The notes beneath the pieces were generated by a model. It saw nothing but the letters and a program-made list of their open reading frames with translations. It was not told the DNA's origin and searched no databases. Positions 9,973 through 21,892 of a stretch of DNA of 32,991 nt are shown one piece after another. Numbering within the stretch: position 1 is the stretch's first letter; every line of letters starts with the position of its first letter. The position numbers were made by a program, and so were the translations under genes. This DNA is from Deltaproteobacteria bacterium (lineage in GTDB: Bacteria; Desulfobacterota; Syntrophobacteria; BM002): positions 1 through 32,991 of the forward strand of contig JAFDGZ010000033.1 of assembly GCA_019309045.1 (NCBI GenBank), given 5' to 3'.

Positions 9973-9988
9973 TGGCATAATACTTGCC
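9973..9988 (+). promoter_or_regulatory. Sigma-54-like promoter before kup
   Basis: TGGCAT-AATAC-TTGCC has the required GG and GC exactly 10 bases apart (consensus TGGCAC-N5-TTGCW). It lies about 70 bases before the kup start. The palindrome CCGCAATTGCGG (9987-9998) overlaps its end. No matching activator site was found close upstream, which lowers confidence. Confidence 0.45.
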
Positions 9989-10058: not shown

Positions 10059-11978
10059 TTGGTCGAGTCGAAGAACAGTGTCACACTGTCGACAACGCTG
10101 TTTTTGACTTACCTGGCAATCGGTGGAGTCCTGGGTGATATTGGCACCTCTCCTTTATATGTCATGTCGCTCAGCTTTCGCTCTCTCCCTTTGACTCGAG
10201 AAAACGTCATGGGAGTTCTTTCCCTGATTTTCTGGTCTTTCGTGTTTCTGTCCAGCAAATACGCCTGGATGGCGCTCAACATGGACAACAACGGTGAAGG
10301 CGGCACCTTTGCCCTTTTGAATCTCATACGCCGGGAGGCCCGCAAGAGCCGTGGGAAAGTCAACAAGGCAAAACTGGCAGGCTCTGTGGCGGCCATTGCT
10401 GCAGTTTTCTCCATGATCTGCGGCGCTCTGCTGTTGAGCGATGGGGTTATTACCCCGTCGATTTCTGTGCTGGCGGCTATCGAGGGCATCGAGGTGGTCT
10501 ATCCGCATCTGGCTGAATATATTATTCCACTGGCGGTCGTCATACTCAGCGGTCTGTTCATGCTGCAGAAAAGGGGTACAGAAAAAATTGCCAGGCTCTT
10601 CTCGCCCATCATCATTGTCTGGTTCGCTGCCATAGGCACTGTGGGTTTTATCAACCTCAGGCAGGCCCCCTGGTTGATAAAGGCTGTGAGTCCCTACTAT
10701 GCCCTGACTTTTTTTCAACACCACCCCATTGCCGTGGTATTTCCCATACTTGGCTACGTTGTATTGTGCATTACTGGCGGGGAGGCCCTCTACGCTGATG
10801 AAGCACATTATTCCAGGCCTGCCATACGGCTGGCCTGGGGGGTGGCGGCGATCTGTCTGCTGGCCAACTATTTTGGCCAGGGGGCCTTCATCCTCAGCAG
10901 CAAAGAAGCAGTAAATCCGTTTTTCGCCATGGCAGTACCCATAGGCCACTGGGTCTATATTTGCCTGTTGATCCTGGCAACCATGGCGGCGATCATTGCC
11001 AGCCAGGCAATGATTACCGGCTCCTTTTCCACCTATAAACAGGCAATGGAGCTGCGTATGTTTCCTCGTCTGCTGGTGCGCAACACTTCGCCTGCCCATC
11101 CCGGCCAGATATACATCCCCGGAGTGAACCGCGGTATGTTTGTGGCCTGCCTGGCAACCGTGTTCATATTTCGCAGTTCCGACGCTCTGGGAAATGCCTA
11201 TGGGCTGGCTGTGACCGGCGCCTTCATCGGCACCACTCTCATGATGGCCAGCCTGCTCTACCTGCGGAGTTTGGAAAAAAAGTCGCATTATTTGTTGTAT
11301 GTGCCATTACTGCTGATCTTCTTGCTGTTCGACTCTGGCTTCTTTTTCTCGAACCTCGGCAAGATTCCTACCGGCGGCTGGTTTCCTCTGCTCATCGGCA
11401 CTTTTCTGGTAATTTCCATGATTGCCTGGGAAAAAGGCTCATGGCTGCTGTACCAGAACATCCCCAAGACCGAGGTGGCCACTTTTCTGGAAGAATTGCA
11501 GGGAATGGAGCTGGTTATTCTGCCCGGCACCAACATTTATATGACCGCCAACGAGAATATTATTCCTGCCTGCCTCCTGGAGGAATATTCGGCAGGCTCT
11601 CTTAAACAGAATCTTGTCCTGGTTACGGTGAAAAATACCGAACTGCCCTGGGGTGTGCAGTATGAGAAAAAGCTCCTGGGCCGATTTCACAATGGCGATG
11701 GCACCATACATCAGGTGAGAATAGACAAGGGCTACATGAGACTGTTTGTCAATGTACCCAAGATTATGAATGAAATGGATTTCAGCCAGGAGCCGCGACG
11801 ATTCGTTTTTGGCATGTGGAATCCTCTTGTGGTCGAACGTTCATGGAAGAAATGGCTCTTGCGCTATTTTCGGGTCATTTACCAGAACAGTCCCTCACTG
11901 ACACAGCGTTTCATGATTCCTGCCTCTGCGGTGATCTATGTGGGCGGCGATGTTGAGATTGCTTTTCGGTGTGAATAG
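10059..11978 (+). CDS. kup: KUP system potassium uptake protein
   Basis: Inner-membrane K+ importer, probably proton-coupled like other Kup proteins. The 639 residues match the usual length. Family motifs are clear: GDIGTSPLYV near residue 27, NNNGEGGTFAL near 77, and LLSDGVITPSISVLAAIEG near 126. About 12 hydrophobic segments fill residues 10-470, followed by a soluble C-terminal domain. The start is TTG 10059 with CGGGGG upstream; no earlier ATG is in frame. It reads in the same direction as the kinase and activator genes that follow after 91 bases. A sigma-54-like box lies upstream. Confidence 0.94.
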   Translation: MVESKNSVTLSTTLFLTYLAIGGVLGDIGTSPLYVMSLSFRSLPLTRENVMGVLSLIFWSFVFLSSKYAWMALNMDNNGEGGTFALLNLIRREARKSRGKVNKAKLAGSVAAIAAVFSMICGALLLSDGVITPSISVLAAIEGIEVVYPHLAEYIIPLAVVILSGLFMLQKRGTEKIARLFSPIIIVWFAAIGTVGFINLRQAPWLIKAVSPYYALTFFQHHPIAVVFPILGYVVLCITGGEALYADEAHYSRPAIRLAWGVAAICLLANYFGQGAFILSSKEAVNPFFAMAVPIGHWVYICLLILATMAAIIASQAMITGSFSTYKQAMELRMFPRLLVRNTSPAHPGQIYIPGVNRGMFVACLATVFIFRSSDALGNAYGLAVTGAFIGTTLMMASLLYLRSLEKKSHYLLYVPLLLIFLLFDSGFFFSNLGKIPTGGWFPLLIGTFLVISMIAWEKGSWLLYQNIPKTEVATFLEELQGMELVILPGTNIYMTANENIIPACLLEEYSAGSLKQNLVLVTVKNTELPWGVQYEKKLLGRFHNGDGTIHQVRIDKGYMRLFVNVPKIMNEMDFSQEPRRFVFGMWNPLVVERSWKKWLLRYFRVIYQNSPSLTQRFMIPASAVIYVGGDVEIAFRCE

Positions 11979-12069: not shown

Positions 12070-12460
12070 ATGATGAAGACGATTAGAAGCAGGATTATAG
12101 TAATATTTATCTTGAGCCTGGTATTGGCGACTATTGCGACGGGCATTTATTACTGGAATCTTGTCAGCGTAAACAGAAGATTATATTTTATCGAAAATTA
12201 TGATGATCTACTAAACAATATATTAGAAGTAAGAAGATTTGAAAAGAACTTCATCTTATATAATGATAAGAAAAGCTTAGATGAATCCAAGTTATATCTT
12301 GATAAAGCTCATAAAATTCTACAACAGCTTGCTCCTAATATCATTAAGATAACAAATAAGAACGTCTACAATGAATTTAGTGCAACCCTAGCAAAATATA
12401 CCGAAGTAATAGAAAAGAACGTCAATATGACAAATAATGTCATGACTGACAAAGATATAA
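12070..12460 (+). other. AT-rich segment encoding the kinase sensor region
   Basis: Row 12181-12240 holds 11 G or C in 60 bases and 12241-12300 holds 15, whereas 13321-13380 in the same gene holds 40. Composition returns to normal after about 12470. The reading frame is intact throughout. Confidence 0.8.
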
Positions 12461-13521
12461 CCATGATGCGGACCAACGGCAAGAAGCTTGTTGATTTTGC
12501 TTTGCAGTTTATCCATGTCAAACGCCAGCGCATCCACCAGGCTCTCTTTCGCTCACTATTTATCCCCATCTTTTTTCTCGCCATTTTCCTGGCGGCAATC
12601 TTGTTGACCTTCCGCATAGTTGCCACTGATATTTTAAAGCCGCTGGAGCTGATCCAGGAAACAACCAAGGAGATAGCGCACGGCAACTTTGTGCCAGTAA
12701 ACTACAATGCCAAGCGCCAGGACGAAATTGCCAATCTCACCTCCGCTATCAACAAGATGGCGGAGGAGCTGGACAGCAGACAGGAAGAACTGGTGCAGTC
12801 TCGAAAGATTGCCGCCATTGGCACCTTCACTGCTGGCATTGCCCACGAACTGAACAATCCTCTCAACAACATATCTCTGACGGCTGAGGCTCTGATCGAG
12901 GATTTTACCGACGAGATACCAGGCGAGGCCAAAGAGCTCATCTTTGATGTTCTCTATCAGGCCAGGCGGGCTGCAGAAGTAGTGGGCAATCTACTGGACT
13001 TCTCCAGAGTGGAAAGCCCCACCCTGGAGGAGCTGGCAATCGATGACGTCATTGAACGCACCATAAAGCTCATCAAGAATCAGCTCATGCTATCGCACGT
13101 GAGTCTACAGGTTAAGATGTCATCTGAGAAGCTCTGTATCAGGGGGACCCTGCGCAGCCTGCAGCAGGTCTTCCTCAATCTGATGCTCAATGCCATACAC
13201 GCCATGCCCAATGGCGGCACTCTTATCATCGAGGCCAGTACCTACCAGGACAAATATGTGCGGGTAGACGTGAAAGATACGGGCACTGGCATAAAGAGTG
13301 AGAATTTGCAAAAGATATTTGATCCTTTCTTCACCACCAAGGGCGTGGGTCGGGGCACCGGCCTGGGCCTTTCGGTGTCGTATGCCATCGTCCAGAAAAT
13401 TGGCGGCTATATCGAAGTGGCAAGTGAGGTAGGAAAGGGATCCACCTTTTCAGTCTATCTGCCGATCTGCAAAGACAAGGCGGAGGTTGTGGATGAAAAA
13501 ACGGCTAGCCGTAGTGGATGA
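12070..13521 (+). CDS. Membrane sensor histidine kinase
   Basis: Sensor of a two-component pair with the overlapping NtrC-type regulator. The layout is: transmembrane segment at about 7-28, a sensing region of about 130 residues, a second transmembrane segment at about 163-184, a HAMP linker, a dimerisation helix with the phosphate-accepting His 259 in FTAGIAHELNNPLNN, then an ATPase domain with N box (LNLMLNAIHAM), DTGTGI and GTGLGLS. The NNPLNN context fits the class of kinases that partner sigma-54 activators. The sensor half is unusually AT-rich and full of ATA, AAT and TTA codons, while the kinase core is GC-rich like its neighbours, so the sensor may have a different origin. The signal sensed is unknown. 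Confidence 0.93.
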   Translation: MMKTIRSRIIVIFILSLVLATIATGIYYWNLVSVNRRLYFIENYDDLLNNILEVRRFEKNFILYNDKKSLDESKLYLDKAHKILQQLAPNIIKITNKNVYNEFSATLAKYTEVIEKNVNMTNNVMTDKDITMMRTNGKKLVDFALQFIHVKRQRIHQALFRSLFIPIFFLAIFLAAILLTFRIVATDILKPLELIQETTKEIAHGNFVPVNYNAKRQDEIANLTSAINKMAEELDSRQEELVQSRKIAAIGTFTAGIAHELNNPLNNISLTAEALIEDFTDEIPGEAKELIFDVLYQARRAAEVVGNLLDFSRVESPTLEELAIDDVIERTIKLIKNQLMLSHVSLQVKMSSEKLCIRGTLRSLQQVFLNLMLNAIHAMPNGGTLIIEASTYQDKYVRVDVKDTGTGIKSENLQKIFDPFFTTKGVGRGTGLGLSVSYAIVQKIGGYIEVASEVGKGSTFSVYLPICKDKAEVVDEKTASRSG

Positions 13522-14845
13522 TGAACTCATAGTATGCCGCCGGCTGTCCAGGGCCCTGAGTAAAGAAGGCTATGAGGTGGAAACCTTCCAGGCGGCCGAG
13601 CCCTTTCTCGAGCGAATGGCGCGGAAAAGCTTCGAAGTGATCTTTCTTGATCTCAGGCTGCCCGATACTGACGGCATGGCTGTGCTCTCCCAGATAAAGA
13701 AAAACTGGCAGAACAGTGAAGTGATAATCATCACCGGCTACGGTTCCATAGATTCTGCCATCGAGGCCATCAAAAAAGGGGCCTACCACTACGTAGCAAA
13801 ACCACTCAAGTTGAATGAAGTTCGGTTGCTGGCTGCCGGGGCTGTGGAGAAGGTGCGGCTCAAAGAGGAAGTGGCAAGACTGCAGAGAAGTCTGGATGAA
13901 GAACGGCGATCCTTCAGTGGGCTGGTAGGCAACAGCAAGGTAATGCAGGAAATATTCAACCTGATCAAGAAAGTTGCCGTGGTGGATTGCAATGTTCTTC
14001 TGCAGGGCGAGACTGGCACCGGCAAAGAACTGGTGGCCAGGGCTATTCATAACCTCAGTCCGCGAAGCTCCCATCCGTTCGTATCTTTTAACTGCGGCAG
14101 TTTTACTGAAGAGTTGATTGCCAATGAACTTTTCGGCCATGAAAAAGGGGCCTTCACCGGCGCAGTGGCAACGAAGATAGGACTTCTGGAGACCTCGCAC
14201 AGGGGCACAGTGTTTCTTGATGAAATAGGAGAAATGTCCTTTGCCATGCAGGTGAAACTGCTGCGGGTTATCCAGGAGAAAAAGATCCTCAGGGTTGGGG
14301 GGACCAGACCGATCGATCTCGATATACGCGTTATTGCAGCCAGCAACAAGGATCTGAAAGAGCTGGTGGAGCAGGGTGAGTTCAGGGAAGATCTCTACTA
14401 CCGGTTGAATGTTGTCAGCATAGTTCTGCCCAGGCTCGAAGAAAGGAAGGAAGATATTCCCTTGCTGATTGCTCATTTTATCAACAAATACAGCGAGGGT
14501 TTGCGCAAACAGATCCGTCATGTCAGTCCTGAGGCCATGGAGATCTTATTGAGCTACGGTTATCCGGGGAACGTGCGCGAACTGGAGAACATTATCGAGC
14601 GGGCAGTTGCCTTAGCAGAAGGCGATGTGGTAAGAGTTGAGGACCTGCCGCCTGATTTGCAAAAGTTGGAATTTCTGTCTCTGAAAGGTGAAGACCTGCT
14701 GCCTCTGGCAGAGATAGAAAAAAGGCACATAGCCAAAGTGCTGGAACGGACCGGCTGGAACAGAAGTCTCACCTGTGAAATCCTGAATCTGCCGCGGACC
14801 ACTCTATGGAGAAAAATGAAGAAATATGGTCTGGCTGAAGAATAG
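13493..14845 (+). CDS. NtrC-family sigma-54-dependent response regulator
   Basis: Transcription activator that uses ATP to open sigma-54 promoters. The N-terminal receiver holds Asp 53 in FLDLRLPDTDG, then IITGYG and VAKPLK. The central AAA+ domain has the Walker A GETGTGKELVARAIH, the sigma-54 contact loop GAFTGA and the Walker B VFLDEIGEM. The C-terminal Fis-type helix-turn-helix ends with LNLPRTTLWRKMKKYGL. ATG 13493 sits six bases after GGAGG and 29 bases inside the kinase gene, so the two are translationally linked. Two palindromic sites and a sigma-54-like promoter lie directly downstream, so the operon at 15065 is its likely target. Confidence 0.95.
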   Translation: MKKRLAVVDDELIVCRRLSRALSKEGYEVETFQAAEPFLERMARKSFEVIFLDLRLPDTDGMAVLSQIKKNWQNSEVIIITGYGSIDSAIEAIKKGAYHYVAKPLKLNEVRLLAAGAVEKVRLKEEVARLQRSLDEERRSFSGLVGNSKVMQEIFNLIKKVAVVDCNVLLQGETGTGKELVARAIHNLSPRSSHPFVSFNCGSFTEELIANELFGHEKGAFTGAVATKIGLLETSHRGTVFLDEIGEMSFAMQVKLLRVIQEKKILRVGGTRPIDLDIRVIAASNKDLKELVEQGEFREDLYYRLNVVSIVLPRLEERKEDIPLLIAHFINKYSEGLRKQIRHVSPEAMEILLSYGYPGNVRELENIIERAVALAEGDVVRVEDLPPDLQKLEFLSLKGEDLLPLAEIEKRHIAKVLERTGWNRSLTCEILNLPRTTLWRKMKKYGLAEE

Positions 14846-14861
14846 TGGCGAAGCCGTTTCA

Positions 14862-14878
14862 TGTTTCGTAATGAAACA
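14862..14878 (+). promoter_or_regulatory. Upstream activator site 1
   Basis: TGTTTC-GTAAT-GAAACA is a perfect 6-base inverted repeat with a 5-base gap, 17 bases after the activator gene ends. It matches site 2 at 14942. Confidence 0.65.
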
Positions 14879-14941
14879 CATTTGTTTTTGCATTGTTTTG
14901 ATAGACTGTCTGCTGTTTTCTCGCCTCCTGGATGTTTTCTC

Positions 14942-14958
14942 TGTTTCAGAATGAAAAA
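14942..14958 (+). promoter_or_regulatory. Upstream activator site 2
   Basis: TGTTTC-AGAAT-GAAAAA repeats site 1 with the same spacing, one mismatch between its arms. The two centres are 80 bases apart and site 2 lies about 75 bases before the -24 box, a normal enhancer distance for an NtrC-type activator. Confidence 0.6.
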
Positions 14959-15022
14959 CCTCAGAGAACTCTTCCTCCTGCCTATTTAGAGTAACTTATT
15001 GAAATTAAAAGAAATCATATCA

Positions 15023-15038
15023 TGGCACCCTTTTTGTT
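15023..15038 (+). promoter_or_regulatory. Sigma-54-like promoter of the stress operon
   Basis: TGGCAC-CCTTT-TTGTT fits TGGCAC-N5-TTGCW except that the -12 GC is GT. The GG pair and the -12 G have the strict spacing. It lies 27 bases before the first gene of the seven-gene operon and just downstream of two matching activator sites. Confidence 0.65.
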
Positions 15039-15064
15039 AGAGCGGTCAAGGGAAGGGTGGGGTC

Positions 15065-15496
15065 ATGAAGCGAATTATGGTGGTTCTGGAAAGCAGTGAG
15101 ACCAATCTCTGGTCAGCCGTGCACGCCATAAACCTGGCCAAGCGGGTGGGTGGCAAGGTGTACATTCTTAGGGTGTTGCCCGCGAAAAAGATCGGAGCCA
15201 GCATGCCAGTGCCGGAAACAGTAGAGGCTGAGCGGCAGGAGAAGCTGGAAGGCCTCATTGAGCAGGGGCGTTCTCAGGGCATTGTAGTAGATTATCAGAT
15301 CTCACATGGAAATTATGAGGATGAGGTGGTGAGATTTATCAGGGAAACAAAGGTTGACATCCTTGTCCTTACCGCACCTCATCTTCTGCGAAGTGGCAGG
15401 CGAGACAGAGCGCTTTCTATCGAGAATATCAGACACCGGGTGAATTGTCGCATCGAGCTCGTATCGGAAAAACCAGATGAACCATCGAGGAGATGA
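15065..15496 (+). CDS. UspA-family universal stress protein (single domain)
   Basis: A 143-residue cytosolic protein with the Usp fold pattern: opening strand KRIMVVLESSE, helix with SAVHAINLAKRVGGKVYILRVL, then the charged helix and VDILVLTAP. The usual Gly-x2-Gly-x9-Gly nucleotide loop after the fourth strand is not present (APHLLRSGRRDRALS instead), so ATP binding is doubtful. It is the first gene of the operon behind the sigma-54-like promoter, and its stop codon overlaps a start-like ATG of the permease gene. Role is unknown beyond stress-protein membership. Confidence 0.82.
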   Translation: MKRIMVVLESSETNLWSAVHAINLAKRVGGKVYILRVLPAKKIGASMPVPETVEAERQEKLEGLIEQGRSQGIVVDYQISHGNYEDEVVRFIRETKVDILVLTAPHLLRSGRRDRALSIENIRHRVNCRIELVSEKPDEPSRR

Positions 15497-16426: not shown

Positions 16427-17215
16427 GTGCTGAAAAGGATCGTTATCTGTCAGTCTATTGCTCTCTTGTTCTTGTTGGGCAAGGCTCCTGCATCACGTGC
16501 CAACAGCATAACTGCCCACCTGAATCCTGAGCGAATCGAGATTGGTGCTTTCTTCAACGGCAGCAAAGTGTTTGTTTCCGGCGTGGTGCCGGCAGACAGC
16601 GAGGTGGCGGTGAGACTGGCCGGGATGCGCCAGGAAGTTGCCCTGAAGAAGAAGGGCAAGGCCCTCGGCCTGTTGTGGATGAATCTGGGTAGCGTCACAG
16701 TGCGAAATGCACCGAGCTTGTATCTCCTCTGCCTGTCTGAAAAATTGCAAGAGCTAGCCCGCGAAAATCCAGAGCAATGGCAGGCACTGAACATAGGCTT
16801 CACTTCTCTGAAAAGAGAAATGAGTGTTGACTCCGATGTGGATGCAGATGATGCTGACTCTATCCTGGAGGAGTTCATTCGTCTCAAGAAAAGCGAAGGA
16901 CTCTATGCCGTAGGGAGGAGCAGCATAAGTTATGGGGAGCTGAACAACGACGGCAAACCTTACAAAGCGATTGTTGAGATTCCGCCGCGGCTCACCCCGG
17001 GCAAGTATCTGTTGGAGGTAATCGCTGTGGCCAACGGCAGAGTGCTGGCTACAGAAAAAAACTGGCTGGAGGTTGAGGAGGTGGGATTCCCTGCCTTTCT
17101 TACCGTGCTTGCCTTCAACCATGGAGCCCTGTATGGACTCCTGGCCACTATTGTGGCAATTGCCGCCGGTTTGCTCATGGGGGTCATATTCAAAGGTGAG
17201 AAGGGTGCACACTGA
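16427..17215 (+). CDS. TIGR02186/PF09608-like membrane protein
   Basis: A 262-residue protein with an N-terminal signal sequence (IVICQSIALLFLLGKAPASRA), a large exported domain and one C-terminal transmembrane segment (LYGLLATIVAIAAGLLMGVIF). The domain begins ITAHLNPERIEIGAFFNGSKVFVSG, a pattern I recognise from the PF09608 family, whose members sit beside TauE/SafE permeases. It starts at GTG 16427, eight bases after AGGAGG. It may act as a periplasmic partner of the permease; this is inferred from gene order. No enzyme motif is seen. Confidence 0.8.
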   Translation: MLKRIVICQSIALLFLLGKAPASRANSITAHLNPERIEIGAFFNGSKVFVSGVVPADSEVAVRLAGMRQEVALKKKGKALGLLWMNLGSVTVRNAPSLYLLCLSEKLQELARENPEQWQALNIGFTSLKREMSVDSDVDADDADSILEEFIRLKKSEGLYAVGRSSISYGELNNDGKPYKAIVEIPPRLTPGKYLLEVIAVANGRVLATEKNWLEVEEVGFPAFLTVLAFNHGALYGLLATIVAIAAGLLMGVIFKGEKGAH

Positions 17216-17220
17216 GCATT

Positions 17221-19794
17221 ATGGGCGTTCTTGAAAGGCTCAAAAAGACGATTTTCCCTGGAAGACAGCGTTCTGGAGAAGTGACTTTTCTCGAGCTGTT
17301 CAAGACCTTTCAGAACATCCTGGAAAAAAATAACAAGATACTGGAAGTAATTGCTGGCATGGGCGACAAGCTCGGCGGAGAATATGTCTTCGACAAACAG
17401 TATATTATCTCGAGCTGCCGTGAGGTGGGGGAGCTTGTTCGGGATCTCATATATGACTTGAACATCATAGCCCAAAAAAAATATCTCGATCTCTACGATG
17501 CTTTCGAACGCATCCACCACGACATTGAAGAGGAGCTTGCCGGCAGACCGGTTATCAGTGAAGGCTCCTATGTCATACCCCTCGAGGAGATTCCTCGAGA
17601 TTCGAGCGACATGGTGGGCGGCAAGATGGCCAATTTAGGGGAAATAGTAAATATCCTGGGGTTGGCATCATCGCCAGGCTTTGTTATTACCACTGCTGCC
17701 TTCAAGGCCTTCATGGAATACAATAACATTTGGGACAGGATCAGAGAACAGCCCCTGGATGAGAAAAGTGCCGAGGAGATCTATCGACTCATCTGCGACG
17801 GTTCTGTTCCAGGGGAAATCCAGAATGACCTGCAGAGCTGTGTTGACAGACTGGCAGACAAAGTAGGCAGGTACAACCTGTTTTTCGCTGTAAGGAGCAG
17901 TGCCCGGGGTGAAGACTCTCTGCACAGCTTTGCCGGTCAGTTCAAGAGCTATCTCAACGAACCCGTTCAGAACCTGACGCAATGCTACAAGGAGGTAGTC
18001 GCCAGCGGTTATTCCCCGTCTGCATTGGCCTACAGAAGGGAAAAGGAGATAGGCGAGGACGAAGTGGCTATGGCAGTGGGTTGCCAGCTAATGGTCCAGG
18101 CCGAGGCGAGTGGTGTTCTCTATACCATGGATCCAACTGCACCTGCCCGTGAGATTGCAGTGATTGAGGCCATATGGGGCCTGGGCGCCCCCCTGGTCTC
18201 GGGCGAGGCTGCTGGAGATCACTACCTGGTGAGCCGCATCCCACCGCACGAAGTGGAGGCATTCAATGTGCGGTTGAAGACGTCCATGCTGATACCAAAA
18301 GAGGGCGGCGGCACAGAAACAGTACCAGTGCCAGAGGAGTTGCGGACCTGTCCCTGTATCGCTGCTGAGCACATACGCCGACTGGTTGAACTGGCACTGG
18401 TAATCGAGAGGTATTTCAAGAAACCCCAGGACATAGAATGGGCTCTGGATCGCGACGGCCAGTTTGTCATCTTGCAAAGCAGGCCCCTCAATATCCAGGC
18501 ACAGGTGGCCAGTCTGGTCTGCGACCTCAGCACCGTGGGAGAAGGACACCGAATAATATTTAGAGACAAGGGCAGCATTGCTCAAAGAGGAATAGGCGCC
18601 GGCACTGTGTGGTTCATTCGCAGCGATGAGGATATGGAAAATTTCCCGGCAGGAGCCATACTTGTAAGCAAGCGCACCTCACCGCGCTTGGCCAGGGTGG
18701 TGCCGAAGGCCAGTGGCATTCTCACAGATGTGGGCTCACCCACCGGTCACATGGCCACCATTGCCAGGGAGTTCCGGGTGCCAACTATTGTAAACACCGG
18801 CGTAGCCACCAGCCTTCTGGAGCCTGGTCAGGAGATCACTGTGGACGCGGAACAGAACGTGGTATATGAGGGAAGGGTGAAAGAGCTCTGCTATTATGAG
18901 TTCACCGAAGAACCCTTTGAAGAAAGCGACGAATACCGCCTGCTCTTGCGGGTGCTCAAGAAGATAGCGCCCCTCAATCTGGTAAATCCTCATGAGAGAA
19001 ACTTTGCCCCTGAAGGCTGCAAGACATATCATGACATTACCCGATTCGTTCACGAGAAGGCGGTGGCACATCTGATTCACCGGGAGTACCATGGCAAGGA
19101 ACCGGACGCTCCAGCCAGGAGACTCAAGCTGAACATCCCTATCGGCCTGTTGCTTATTGATATTGGCGGCGGCATAGATGCTGCGGCAGGCTCGGGAGAC
19201 CTGCAGCCTGAGCAGGTGACCTCGGTGCCCCTGCGGGCAATACTGGAAGGCATGACGCATCCCGGCATGTGGAGCACCGAGCCCATGTCCGTAGATCTGG
19301 GGTCATTCATGTCCAGTCTTACCCGGACCTTCTCCTCGCAGCTGGCGACTCCCAAGTATCTGGGGCAGAACCTGGCAGTGGTGTCGCAGCAGTATATGAA
19401 CCTCAGCCTGAGGCTGGGGTATCATTTCAATATGGTAGATGCCTACATCAGCGAGAATATCAACGACAACTATGCCTACTTCCGTTTTCTCGGGGGAGTG
19501 ACGGAGTTGCTGCGCCGGGAGAGGCGGGTTAGACTGCTGGCCGAGATCCTGGAACAAAATGATTTTCGGGTGGATGTTACCGGAGATCTGGTGGTGGGCA
19601 GAATAAAGAAGTTGGACGTCTCTGGCATGATTGAAAAGATGAAGGTTTTGGGACACTTGGTTGCTTTTACCAGGCAGCTGGACGTACAAATGATTGACGA
19701 TGACAAGGTAAATGGTGCCATTGCCATGTTCAACAAATTGGCGGCGGGTAATTTACTGCCGGAAAGCAAAGGAAGGTCAAATGGGCAACGATAA
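17221..19794 (+). CDS. PEP-synthase-like protein lacking a recognisable PEP/pyruvate barrel
   Basis: An 857-residue protein related to pyruvate,water dikinase. Residues 1-110 are a helical lead-in unlike the family. Residues ~125-430 form the ATP-grasp domain (DMVGGKMANLGE, PGFVITTAAF, FAVRSSARGEDS, DIEWALDRDGQFVILQSRP). Residues ~475-560 form the swivelling phosphohistidine domain with His 510 in TDVGSPTGHMATIAREFRVPTIV. The last ~300 residues do not show the CGE or SIGTNDL-type motifs of the PEP/pyruvate-binding barrel and are unlike it. The protein may therefore transfer phosphate from ATP to something else, or act as a regulatory phosphocarrier. It lies 5 bases after the PF09608 gene and overlaps the response regulator gene by 14 bases. 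Confidence 0.85.
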   Translation: MGVLERLKKTIFPGRQRSGEVTFLELFKTFQNILEKNNKILEVIAGMGDKLGGEYVFDKQYIISSCREVGELVRDLIYDLNIIAQKKYLDLYDAFERIHHDIEEELAGRPVISEGSYVIPLEEIPRDSSDMVGGKMANLGEIVNILGLASSPGFVITTAAFKAFMEYNNIWDRIREQPLDEKSAEEIYRLICDGSVPGEIQNDLQSCVDRLADKVGRYNLFFAVRSSARGEDSLHSFAGQFKSYLNEPVQNLTQCYKEVVASGYSPSALAYRREKEIGEDEVAMAVGCQLMVQAEASGVLYTMDPTAPAREIAVIEAIWGLGAPLVSGEAAGDHYLVSRIPPHEVEAFNVRLKTSMLIPKEGGGTETVPVPEELRTCPCIAAEHIRRLVELALVIERYFKKPQDIEWALDRDGQFVILQSRPLNIQAQVASLVCDLSTVGEGHRIIFRDKGSIAQRGIGAGTVWFIRSDEDMENFPAGAILVSKRTSPRLARVVPKASGILTDVGSPTGHMATIAREFRVPTIVNTGVATSLLEPGQEITVDAEQNVVYEGRVKELCYYEFTEEPFEESDEYRLLLRVLKKIAPLNLVNPHERNFAPEGCKTYHDITRFVHEKAVAHLIHREYHGKEPDAPARRLKLNIPIGLLLIDIGGGIDAAAGSGDLQPEQVTSVPLRAILEGMTHPGMWSTEPMSVDLGSFMSSLTRTFSSQLATPKYLGQNLAVVSQQYMNLSLRLGYHFNMVDAYISENINDNYAYFRFLGGVTELLRRERRVRLLAEILEQNDFRVDVTGDLVVGRIKKLDVSGMIEKMKVLGHLVAFTRQLDVQMIDDDKVNGAIAMFNKLAAGNLLPESKGRSNGQR

Positions 19795-20185
19795 AAAGAG
19801 ACAGATACTCATTCTGGACGATGAACCCATAGTTTCCAAACGGCTCAAGCCGGCCCTGGAAAAAGCCGGCTACGAGGTTGAAGCGTTTACGCAAAGCACC
19901 AAGGCCATGAAGCGCGTGCAGGAAAAGGAATTCGATATTGTCATAACCGATCTCAAGATGGAAGGCATAGACGGCATGGAATTCCTTACAGAGGTGAAGA
20001 AGCGCTCTGATAAGGCCGAAGTAATAGTAATTACCGGTTTCGCCACCATGGAAACGGCGAAGGAGTCTTTCCAGAAAGGAGTGTTCGATTTTGTGGCCAA
20101 GCCTTTCAAGAGGGCGGAACTGTTGGAGATTGTGAGAAAAGCAGAAGAGAAGGTCCGCCTGAAGGAAGCACAGATGAAGGAGTGA
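19781..20185 (+). CDS. Single-domain response regulator
   Basis: A CheY-like receiver of 134 residues with no output domain. The phosphorylation pocket is complete: Asp 13, Asp 14, Asp 57 (VITDLKMEGIDG), Thr 85 (VITGFAT) and Lys 107 (VAKPFKRAE). ATG 19781 overlaps the upstream dikinase-like gene by 14 bases and has GGAAGG before it; longer frames would run deeper into that gene. It probably relays or buffers phosphate for this operon. Whether the kinase at 12070 phosphorylates it cannot be told from sequence. Confidence 0.92.
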   Translation: MGNDKKRQILILDDEPIVSKRLKPALEKAGYEVEAFTQSTKAMKRVQEKEFDIVITDLKMEGIDGMEFLTEVKKRSDKAEVIVITGFATMETAKESFQKGVFDFVAKPFKRAELLEIVRKAEEKVRLKEAQMKE

Positions 20186-20189
20186 AACC

Positions 20190-20996
20190 ATGATTAAAGC
20201 ACTTGTTCCCGTGGCCGCAGATCTGGCATCCAGCATAGCTCTTCGCTGTGCCTGTCAATTGGCGAGCCAGGTGAACTTAGAGATTCAGACGATTCACATC
20301 AAGGAAGCCACAACAGAGGGTTCTTCTTCAGTAGGCACAGGATGGGTCAGATTGACCTGGGAGAGGACCATGCTGAGCCAGGCAGAAGATGACCTGGCGC
20401 AGCTTATGCGGGCCGAGCGAACGCACTGTCCCACCCTTGGAGAGCCAAAGATTGTCCTTGGCGACAGAGACGACGAGATACTGCGAGAGCTGCAGCACGG
20501 CTCCTATGATCTCTTCCTGGAAGGAACCATCTCCACCTTTAGCTCGGCCTATCTGACCAAGCGGCTGCAATCGTCGCTGTATCAGAGAATGCCCTGTCCG
20601 TTCATCATGGTAAAGAACTTGATGCCACTCGAAAGGGTGGCAATCTTGCTGAGCAACAATGTGGATATCCCCCGGTTGGTCCAGGTATTCAGCCGGACAA
20701 TGGCAGCTGCTCGCCTGGCTCTGGATGTACTGTATCTGAAGTTTGACGGGGCCGAGGGCGGCGGGGACGCCGAAGCAGCGCGCGGCGATCTGCAGTCTGC
20801 CAAGGAACTCCTGGAGAAGCAGGAATTGGCGCCTGAGAAAGTGGAGGTGAAAAGCGGCGAACCTGAGGCACTGGCCGGGCAGCTGGAAAATTATGGACTT
20901 TTGGCAACCCTGTTGCCCAGGGGATTCAAGACCAAGACGCCCTTCTACAAGTTTCTGGTAGCTACCCCGGTGCCGATTTTCCTTTCCTGGCAGTGA
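20190..20996 (+). CDS. UspA-like stress protein (tandem, diverged)
   Basis: A 268-residue protein with two Usp-like halves: KALVPVAADLASSIALRCACQLA at the start and RVAILLSNNVDIPRLVQVFSRTMAAARLALDVLYL in the middle. The first half keeps the C-terminal strand order (LFLEGTISTFSSAYLTKRL...CPFIMVKN); a clear ATP loop is not seen. AAGGAG lies before ATG 20190, four bases after the response regulator. The family assignment is moderate because both halves are diverged. Confidence 0.72.
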   Translation: MIKALVPVAADLASSIALRCACQLASQVNLEIQTIHIKEATTEGSSSVGTGWVRLTWERTMLSQAEDDLAQLMRAERTHCPTLGEPKIVLGDRDDEILRELQHGSYDLFLEGTISTFSSAYLTKRLQSSLYQRMPCPFIMVKNLMPLERVAILLSNNVDIPRLVQVFSRTMAAARLALDVLYLKFDGAEGGGDAEAARGDLQSAKELLEKQELAPEKVEVKSGEPEALAGQLENYGLLATLLPRGFKTKTPFYKFLVATPVPIFLSWQ

Positions 20997-21019
20997 CGGT
21001 TTCCGGCAAGGAGGTTGCG

Positions 21020-21892
21020 ATGAGAATACTCTGTGCGGTAGACGAGAACCCCTACAGTGAGCAGGCAGTCAGAGAAACGGCCAGGTTGGCAATGAATACC
21101 TGGGCAAATGTGACCATTCTGGGAGTGCATCCAGACAGTCATATAGTGGCAAAGACCGGGGAGCATGATGCAGGCATATTCCAGACGCTGCGCCGCTTCC
21201 GGGAAGTTTTCTTGAGCTACTTTCAGGAGCCGGGTTCGCCGTACAATACCGAGCGTTGTGGCTACAGATTCGTACCCATGTCGAACACCGTGCTGGAAGA
21301 TCTCTACGTCTGCGAGAGCAGCAGGAAAGAATTGAAAGTGCGTTTGAGAGCCGGCAATATGGTGCGGGCAATCCTTGCGGAAGCAGCGGATGGCGCAAGT
21401 GACCTGGTGGTGATCGGCTGCGACCACAAACATGGCTGCGGCTGGGCCACTGACAGCTCTCTTCCCAGAAAAGTGGTAAATGGAGCCCCCTGTTCAGCAC
21501 TGGTGGTAAGCAGCGAGCAAGAGATAACTGAAGTGATCTGTTGTCTGGACCAGGAGAGCGTCAGCCAGGCCAGCCTGGAGATGATCAATCAGATGGTAAC
21601 GACCTACCAGGCAAGGCTCAAAATTGTTGGTTTGAGCAAGGGAATGGCGCTGCAGGCCGAGGTGGACAAAAGCATGCACTTCATCCTGGAGTACTATGTT
21701 GCCCGGGATCTCAAACCACTGATAAGCATGGTTGACCCCACACAGCTCGAGAGTTTTATAGCCCAGGAAAACCAGCAGGCATTGATGGCCCTGGTTATGG
21801 GGCAGAGATCCACGCTCGCCAAGATTTTCTCCCGCAAGAAAGTGGATAAGCTGGTGCAGGCAAATCGGAGTTCAGTGCTGATCTTGCGGTGA
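21020..21892 (+). CDS. UspA-like stress protein (tandem, last gene of operon)
   Basis: A 290-residue protein. The first half is a Usp domain (RILCAVDENPYSEQAVRETARLA ... DLVVIGCDHKHGC...SLPRKVVNGAPCSALVVSS), followed by a diverged second half that closes with SRKKVDKLVQANRSSVLIL. I use ATG 21020 because AAGGAGG lies five bases upstream; an in-frame GTG at 20993 overlaps the previous gene. This gene ends the operon. A repeat remnant with a strong hairpin lies about 60 bases beyond. Confidence 0.8.
   Translation: MRILCAVDENPYSEQAVRETARLAMNTWANVTILGVHPDSHIVAKTGEHDAGIFQTLRRFREVFLSYFQEPGSPYNTERCGYRFVPMSNTVLEDLYVCESSRKELKVRLRAGNMVRAILAEAADGASDLVVIGCDHKHGCGWATDSSLPRKVVNGAPCSALVVSSEQEITEVICCLDQESVSQASLEMINQMVTTYQARLKIVGLSKGMALQAEVDKSMHFILEYYVARDLKPLISMVDPTQLESFIAQENQQALMALVMGQRSTLAKIFSRKKVDKLVQANRSSVLILR

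Follow-up and report, generated by a model that had tools for sequence, protein, structure and literature searches.

The window analyzed here (the whole stretch of DNA, 32,991 nt in length) harbored two look-alike palindromes and a -24/-12-like box between a sigma-54 activator gene and a multigene operon, which raised the question of what this intergenic DNA controls and which protein acts on it. The region 14862-15037 was interpreted as the likely sigma-54 control region of the operon usp–tauE–Alph_Pro_TM–PPDK_N–REC–usp–usp, worked by the regulator encoded upstream (probability about 0.88).

Gene organization of the locus

The genes of the locus were arranged as follows:

12070..13521, plus strand: sensor histidine kinase (HAMP, HisKA, HATPase_c); Pfam; adjoins the regulator in most relatives
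13493..14845, plus strand: NtrC-type response regulator; Pfam and translation; recognition helix common to site-bearing orthologues
15065..15496, plus strand: Usp, first gene of the operon; Pfam PF00582
15493..16425, plus strand: TauE/SafE-family permease; Pfam PF01925, 8e-50
16427..17215, plus strand: Alph_Pro_TM membrane protein; Pfam PF09608, 1e-48
17221..19794, plus strand: PPDK_N plus PEP-utilizers domain protein, 857 aa; Pfam
19712..20185, plus strand: stand-alone receiver-domain protein; Pfam PF00072
20190..20996, plus strand: Usp-like protein; Pfam match weak, just under the cut-off; position kept in relatives
20993..21892, plus strand: Usp-like protein; Pfam PF00582

The regulator contained a receiver domain, a sigma-54 AAA+ domain with GAFTGA, and a Fis-type HTH_8 domain with the recognition helix PRTTLWRKMKKYGL (Pfam and translation), and by these domains it is an NtrC-type bacterial enhancer-binding response regulator. 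The kinase, with an uncharacterized N-terminal sensing region, is its probable partner. The operon genes formed a tight run; a role in stress-linked transport is at most plausible, because several Usp proteins are encoded together with a member of the TauE/SafE family, which includes sulfite and sulfonate exporters. In the 17221-19794 protein, the usual C-terminal PEP-binding domain was not detected by Pfam, and the last 300 residues gave no family match.

A perfect TGGCAT-N5-TTGC box was also present at 9973-9987, upstream of the kinase gene and about 70 bp before kup (K+ transporter, 10059-11978). Control of kup by the same sites was considered and rejected: no TGTTTCA site was found upstream of kup, and kup was not located beside the kinase gene in G001 and G005, as far as these contigs reach.

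Sites, promoter box, and IHF-like element in the window

Four elements were recognized between the regulator gene and the first usp gene:

14862-14878, plus strand: upstream activator site 1, TGTTTCGTAATGAAACA; sequence; kept in relatives
14942-14958, plus strand: upstream activator site 2, TGTTTCAGAATGAAAAA; sequence; spacing kept
14992..15004, minus strand: IHF-like element TTTCAATAAGTTA; 8/9 specified positions of WATCAANNNNTTR; conserved island in the alignment
15023-15037, plus strand: predicted -24/-12 sigma-54 promoter TGGCACCCTTTTTGT; full consensus in relatives, alignment, and genome-wide enrichment

Both sites were copies of TGTTTCA-N3-TGAAACA: site 1 was fully symmetric (TGTTTC-N5-GAAACA), and one arm letter broke the symmetry of site 2. 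The site starts were 80 bp apart, exactly as given in a preliminary description of this DNA, and site 2 started 81 bp before the start of the box with 64 bases in between, so that the box began 65 bases past the second site, again as described. The palindrome originally written as TGTTTC-N5-GAAACA was retained, while its core was refined to TTTCA-N3-TGAAA, with an A and a T falling inside the former N5; among 57 sites compared, T4, C6, and G12 were invariant, and A7 and T11 were nearly so.

The string TGTTTC-N3-ATGAAA had three matches in the 3.9-Mb genome, all located in the window, versus one for the reversed control. The third match, at 14211, lay within the Walker-B codons of the regulator gene; it was set aside as a site, since it represented codons of the conserved VFLDEIGE stretch and recurred in other regulator genes. 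Two alike palindromes 60-110 bp apart were found once in the window and in 0/20 dinucleotide shuffles, and the pair at 14862-14958 is not a product of chance. Looser searches were of little use: a genome scan for the site with three mismatches was too noisy (196 matches versus 95 for the reversed control), and site-plus-box scans with loose arms yielded mostly apparent chance matches.

The box TGGCACCCTTTTTGT matched 9/10 specified positions of TGGCAY-N5-TTGC, with TTGT rather than TTGC as the -12 element. Taken alone it is weak evidence, because of this TTGT and because boxes with one or two mismatches were about as frequent in the window as expected (48 found versus 44 expected); conservation makes it convincing as a predicted promoter. 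Most relatives displayed the full TGGCAY-N5-TTGC at the corresponding position, and the TTGT variant was common to the window and two members of its family (L005 and L008). The window's genome encoded rpoN (sigma-54) and contained 96 matches to TGGCAYN5TTGC versus 9 to the reversed pattern, and therefore sigma-54 promoters are heavily used in it. By the rule of about 12 bp past the -12 element, an rpoN-dependent start is predicted at about 15048-15049. Elsewhere in this genome (G000:C95:4815-5002; L139), two perfect -24/-12 boxes of the same orientation, separated by 173 bp, were located in intergenic DNA, with a terminator-like hairpin plus a T run between them, possibly marking a small RNA.

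The preliminary description did not mention the IHF-like element. When the stretch between site and box was compared with the IHF consensus, the top match in about 12 loci, including the distant L069, L070, and L091, fell on the minus strand 30-31 bp upstream of the box. Single matches mostly scored at chance level against shuffles, and it is the fixed position that serves as evidence; in loci with long spacing between site and box, the match was absent or elsewhere. Region 14992-15004 is a probable DNA-bending site. DNABII proteins were found in the window's genome, and the label was kept at "IHF-like" because the top score against the IHF-alpha model was 103.9 bits, under the family cut-off of 120.25.

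Conservation of the layout across relatives

The gene block was conserved in dozens of Desulfobacterota-type contigs, with variable placement of the regulator and kinase genes: upstream, divergent (L061, L064, and L067), apparently downstream (L047 and L051), or, in G046, to which locus L066 belongs, on a separate contig. The layout of the window also occurred in two cultured relatives, Desulfosarcina cetonica and Desulfatibacillum alkenivorans (loci L049 and L065). Among 33 Desulfobacterota-type loci with a neighboring regulator, which are related by descent and hence do not give independent counts, a site of at least 12/14 was present in 27 (0.08 in dinucleotide shuffles), and two or more sites at 11/14 were present in 26 (0.04 in shuffles). 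The pair was 80-86 bp apart in most loci, and the loci fell into architectural classes: (i) that of the window, with the nearer site 77-81 bp before the start of the box and the pair 80-84 bp apart; and (ii) others, with the pair keeping 80-86 bp but placed 150-240 bp from the box. In a few loci, the two sites were spaced at 23 or about 41 bp. In an alignment of eight intergenic regions, sites and box stood out as conserved islands in otherwise unalignable DNA.

The preliminary description had staked its reading on the sites being conserved before the same operon, and relatives kept them together with spacing and box; its proposal of a complete enhancer-promoter layout draws support from these conserved dyads, their spacing, and the box. 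Judged from sequence, the dyads, conserved upstream of the predicted promoter and tied to a regulator, are probable enhancers of the NtrC type.

Two further cases were observed. In the Nitrospirota, loci L089 and L091 have a more distantly related regulator, and there a TGGCAT-N5-TTGC box is preceded by sites of the TGTATCAAATTGAAACA type and by TGTTTAAATCTGAAACA, which suggests a control older than the split or acquired by transfer. In L070, the sites had drifted to TGTTTTATTTTTAAACA and TGTTTAAAAATTAAACG and the regulator had diverged, possibly through a joint change of operator and recognition.

Assignment of the sites to a regulator

In a tree of 59 regulators, the window protein grouped with the regulators of the other site-bearing loci in a supported clade of 40. 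The nearest paralogue clade, also represented in the window's genome and family, branched apart from it. A strong site was present in 32/39 loci with an orthologue of the regulator versus 0/7 without one (Fisher p = 6e-5, phylogeny ignored). The remaining orthologue-bearing loci were of two kinds: L057, L066, and L072 had strong sites slightly upstream of the scanned stretch, and in L038, L061, L064, and L077 the 450 bp scanned yielded weak sites only.

Two of the seven loci without the orthologue came from metagenome assemblies of the window's family, both from one study (G006 and G007; L043 and L044), and retained mere remnants of the regulator gene between kinase and tauE: about 26 regulator codons were left in G007, and the two ends of the gene were fused in G006. 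Both lacked the leading Usp gene as well as sites and box, while tauE (shortly after the kinase gene) and the rest of the operon were intact. G006 is the more telling case of co-loss; G007 is less informative, because its deletion took the intergenic DNA along with the gene.

The recognition helix agreed with this distribution: site-bearing orthologues had PRTTLWR(K/R), the nearest paralogue clade had IDRVSLWRK, and two basal relatives without sites had SRTTLWRK. The upstream regulator had previously been named as the natural candidate for binding, and the sites indeed appear to follow the orthologue and not its paralogues. The layout is almost certainly the neighboring activator's own switch, because many sulfate-reducer-type bacteria share it and loss of the activator gene goes with its absence. 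Two loci (L068 and L071) had neither a regulator orthologue nor sites, yet tauE was preceded by a perfect -24/-12 box, and the promoter there may now answer to a different activator.

Size of the regulon

Across 32 genomes, paired sites with the TTTCA-N3-TGAAA core were essentially confined to the front of the usp-tauE operon, and a site-plus-box scan of the window's genome returned the usp-tauE promoter plus one other, on contig C39. The preliminary description foresaw a defined regulon motif; the regulon itself amounts to essentially a single operon in each genome, plus one candidate addition. The C39 promoter (G000:C39:5800-5935; L204) had TGTTTCATATTAAGACA 79 bp before TGGCATGTTCTTTGC as well as a near-identical IHF-like stretch, and it preceded genes for a small protein and three receiver-domain proteins; this operon is a candidate second target. 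The corresponding receiver operon of G005 (C184; L217) had the palindrome AGTCTCATTATGAGACT 78 bp before the box (hand count). Since the half-sites in both carried a C where those of the TauE operon nearly always carry a T, a related activator may be responsible for them.

A tentative reading, possible though not favored, is that of an old, near-single-target sigma-54 regulon of one stress/transport operon, spread over Desulfobacterota and possibly also over Nitrospirota. Sites and regulator would be lost jointly, and in the window's genome the regulon would extend to the multi-receiver phosphorelay operon on C39. If true, this extension would link two signaling modules.

Proposed mechanism and alternative explanations

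The proposed sequence of events is as follows. On a signal, the regulator (13493-14845) would be phosphorylated, probably by the kinase (12070-13521), and its phosphorylated dimers would bind the two TGTTTCA-N3-TGAAACA sites, whose centers are about 99 and 179 bp away from the predicted start on its upstream side; at about eight helical turns apart, the sites would lie on one helix face. An IHF-like protein would bend the DNA at 14992-15004, the AAA+ ring could then contact sigma-54 RNA polymerase at 15023-15037, and the promoter would open near 15049, so that the expected direction of control is activation.

Binding by a paralogous sigma-54 activator, or by several with overlapping specificity, instead of by the neighbor is unlikely, although the window's genome offered ample candidates (28 of its proteins matched the regulator with E<=1e-80) and the site before the C39 operon was related, not identical. 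Overlapping TGT...ACA motifs among Desulfovibrio vulgaris activators, as described in PMC4641369, likewise speak for shared specificity. G006 and G007, however, kept the nearest paralogue (51-52%) and yet had no sites, so that sites track the orthologue; the recognition helix of that paralogue differed, and the regulator gene adjoined the sites in most loci.

Readings that dispense with an enhancer altogether are less probable still. Palindromes of the TGTTTC-N5-GAAACA shape are also typical of repressor operators, and the pair might serve an unrelated repressor or autoregulation of the upstream genes on a sigma-70 promoter; this is very improbable, as no sigma-70-like promoter was found in 14600-15200, and a fixed spacing of 77-81 bp in one class together with positions up to about 240 bp upstream elsewhere is enhancer-like and unlike repressor operators. 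In L067, moreover, the regulator and kinase genes were divergent, and the sites still lay beside the sigma-54 box of the operon. The least probable reading assigns the inverted repeats a role at the RNA level, where they would provide the regulator transcript with a 3'-terminal hairpin or terminator: both palindromes come after the regulator's stop codon and both could form RNA hairpins (-11.2 and -13.1 kcal/mol; z = -2.27 for the second), but the first was no better than shuffles (z = -1.0), and the sole terminator-like match was a separate, weak one at 14844-14858, of a kind found at chance frequency. The site letters were conserved beyond pairing, and sites were present where the regulator gene was not immediately upstream (L042, L045, L047, L051, and L066). 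Activation through the neighboring regulator accordingly stays the preferred reading.

Comparison with known systems

According to Rajeev 2011 (PMC3333781) and Kazakov 2015 (PMC4641369), the sigma-54 two-component regulons of D. vulgaris Hildenborough mostly comprise one to four operons, often beside the regulator's own gene, with -24/-12 promoters and, as a rule, no more than about 100 bp from site to promoter; the motif groups have TGT and ACA half-sites 9, 11, or 12 bp apart. The window sites, of the form TGT-N11-ACA, resemble these motif groups, and the system is likewise NtrC-type and locus-dedicated. The main text of PMC4641369 contained no usp-tauE operon and no TGTTTC or TGAAAC strings, and no Hildenborough orthologue of the regulator was identifiable from the text. 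Literature text, as distinct from figures and supplements, gave no account of usp-tauE operon control, and motif letters and TIGR02186 likewise returned nothing relevant; a prior prediction of this control in some database is possible.

The response regulator DVU3305 of D. vulgaris controls DVU3302-3298, which includes UspA-type proteins, in a reported general stress response. It resembles the window regulator as a sigma-54 response regulator over a neighboring operon of membrane and universal-stress-type proteins, but it has GAFSGA and an operon with a Lon-domain regulator, whereas the window regulator has GAFTGA. DVU3305 was rejected as an orthologue: GAFSGA was absent from the 59 regulators, and the orthologues had GAFTGA-type motifs. 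By its GAFTGA, the window's system also falls outside the DVU3305-type general stress regulon. None of the mapped neighbors was a Lon-domain protein.

NtrC-type layouts with IHF, such as nif promoters, combine a -24/-12 box with a pair of sites further upstream and an IHF-type element in between. In the window, the two sites and the predicted box correspond to this arrangement, with the IHF-like element as a putative third part; the site sequence differed, and the role of IHF would here follow from consensus and fixed position. The mechanism itself is a standard one, and what is new is a well-supported, locus-dedicated sigma-54 two-component switch of a known type. It links regulator, sites, and promoter in a precise and testable manner for a widely conserved, uncharacterized operon of sulfate-reducer-type bacteria. 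The PRTTLWR helix together with TGTTTCA-N3-TGAAACA provides a signature by which the same control can be recognized in other genomes.
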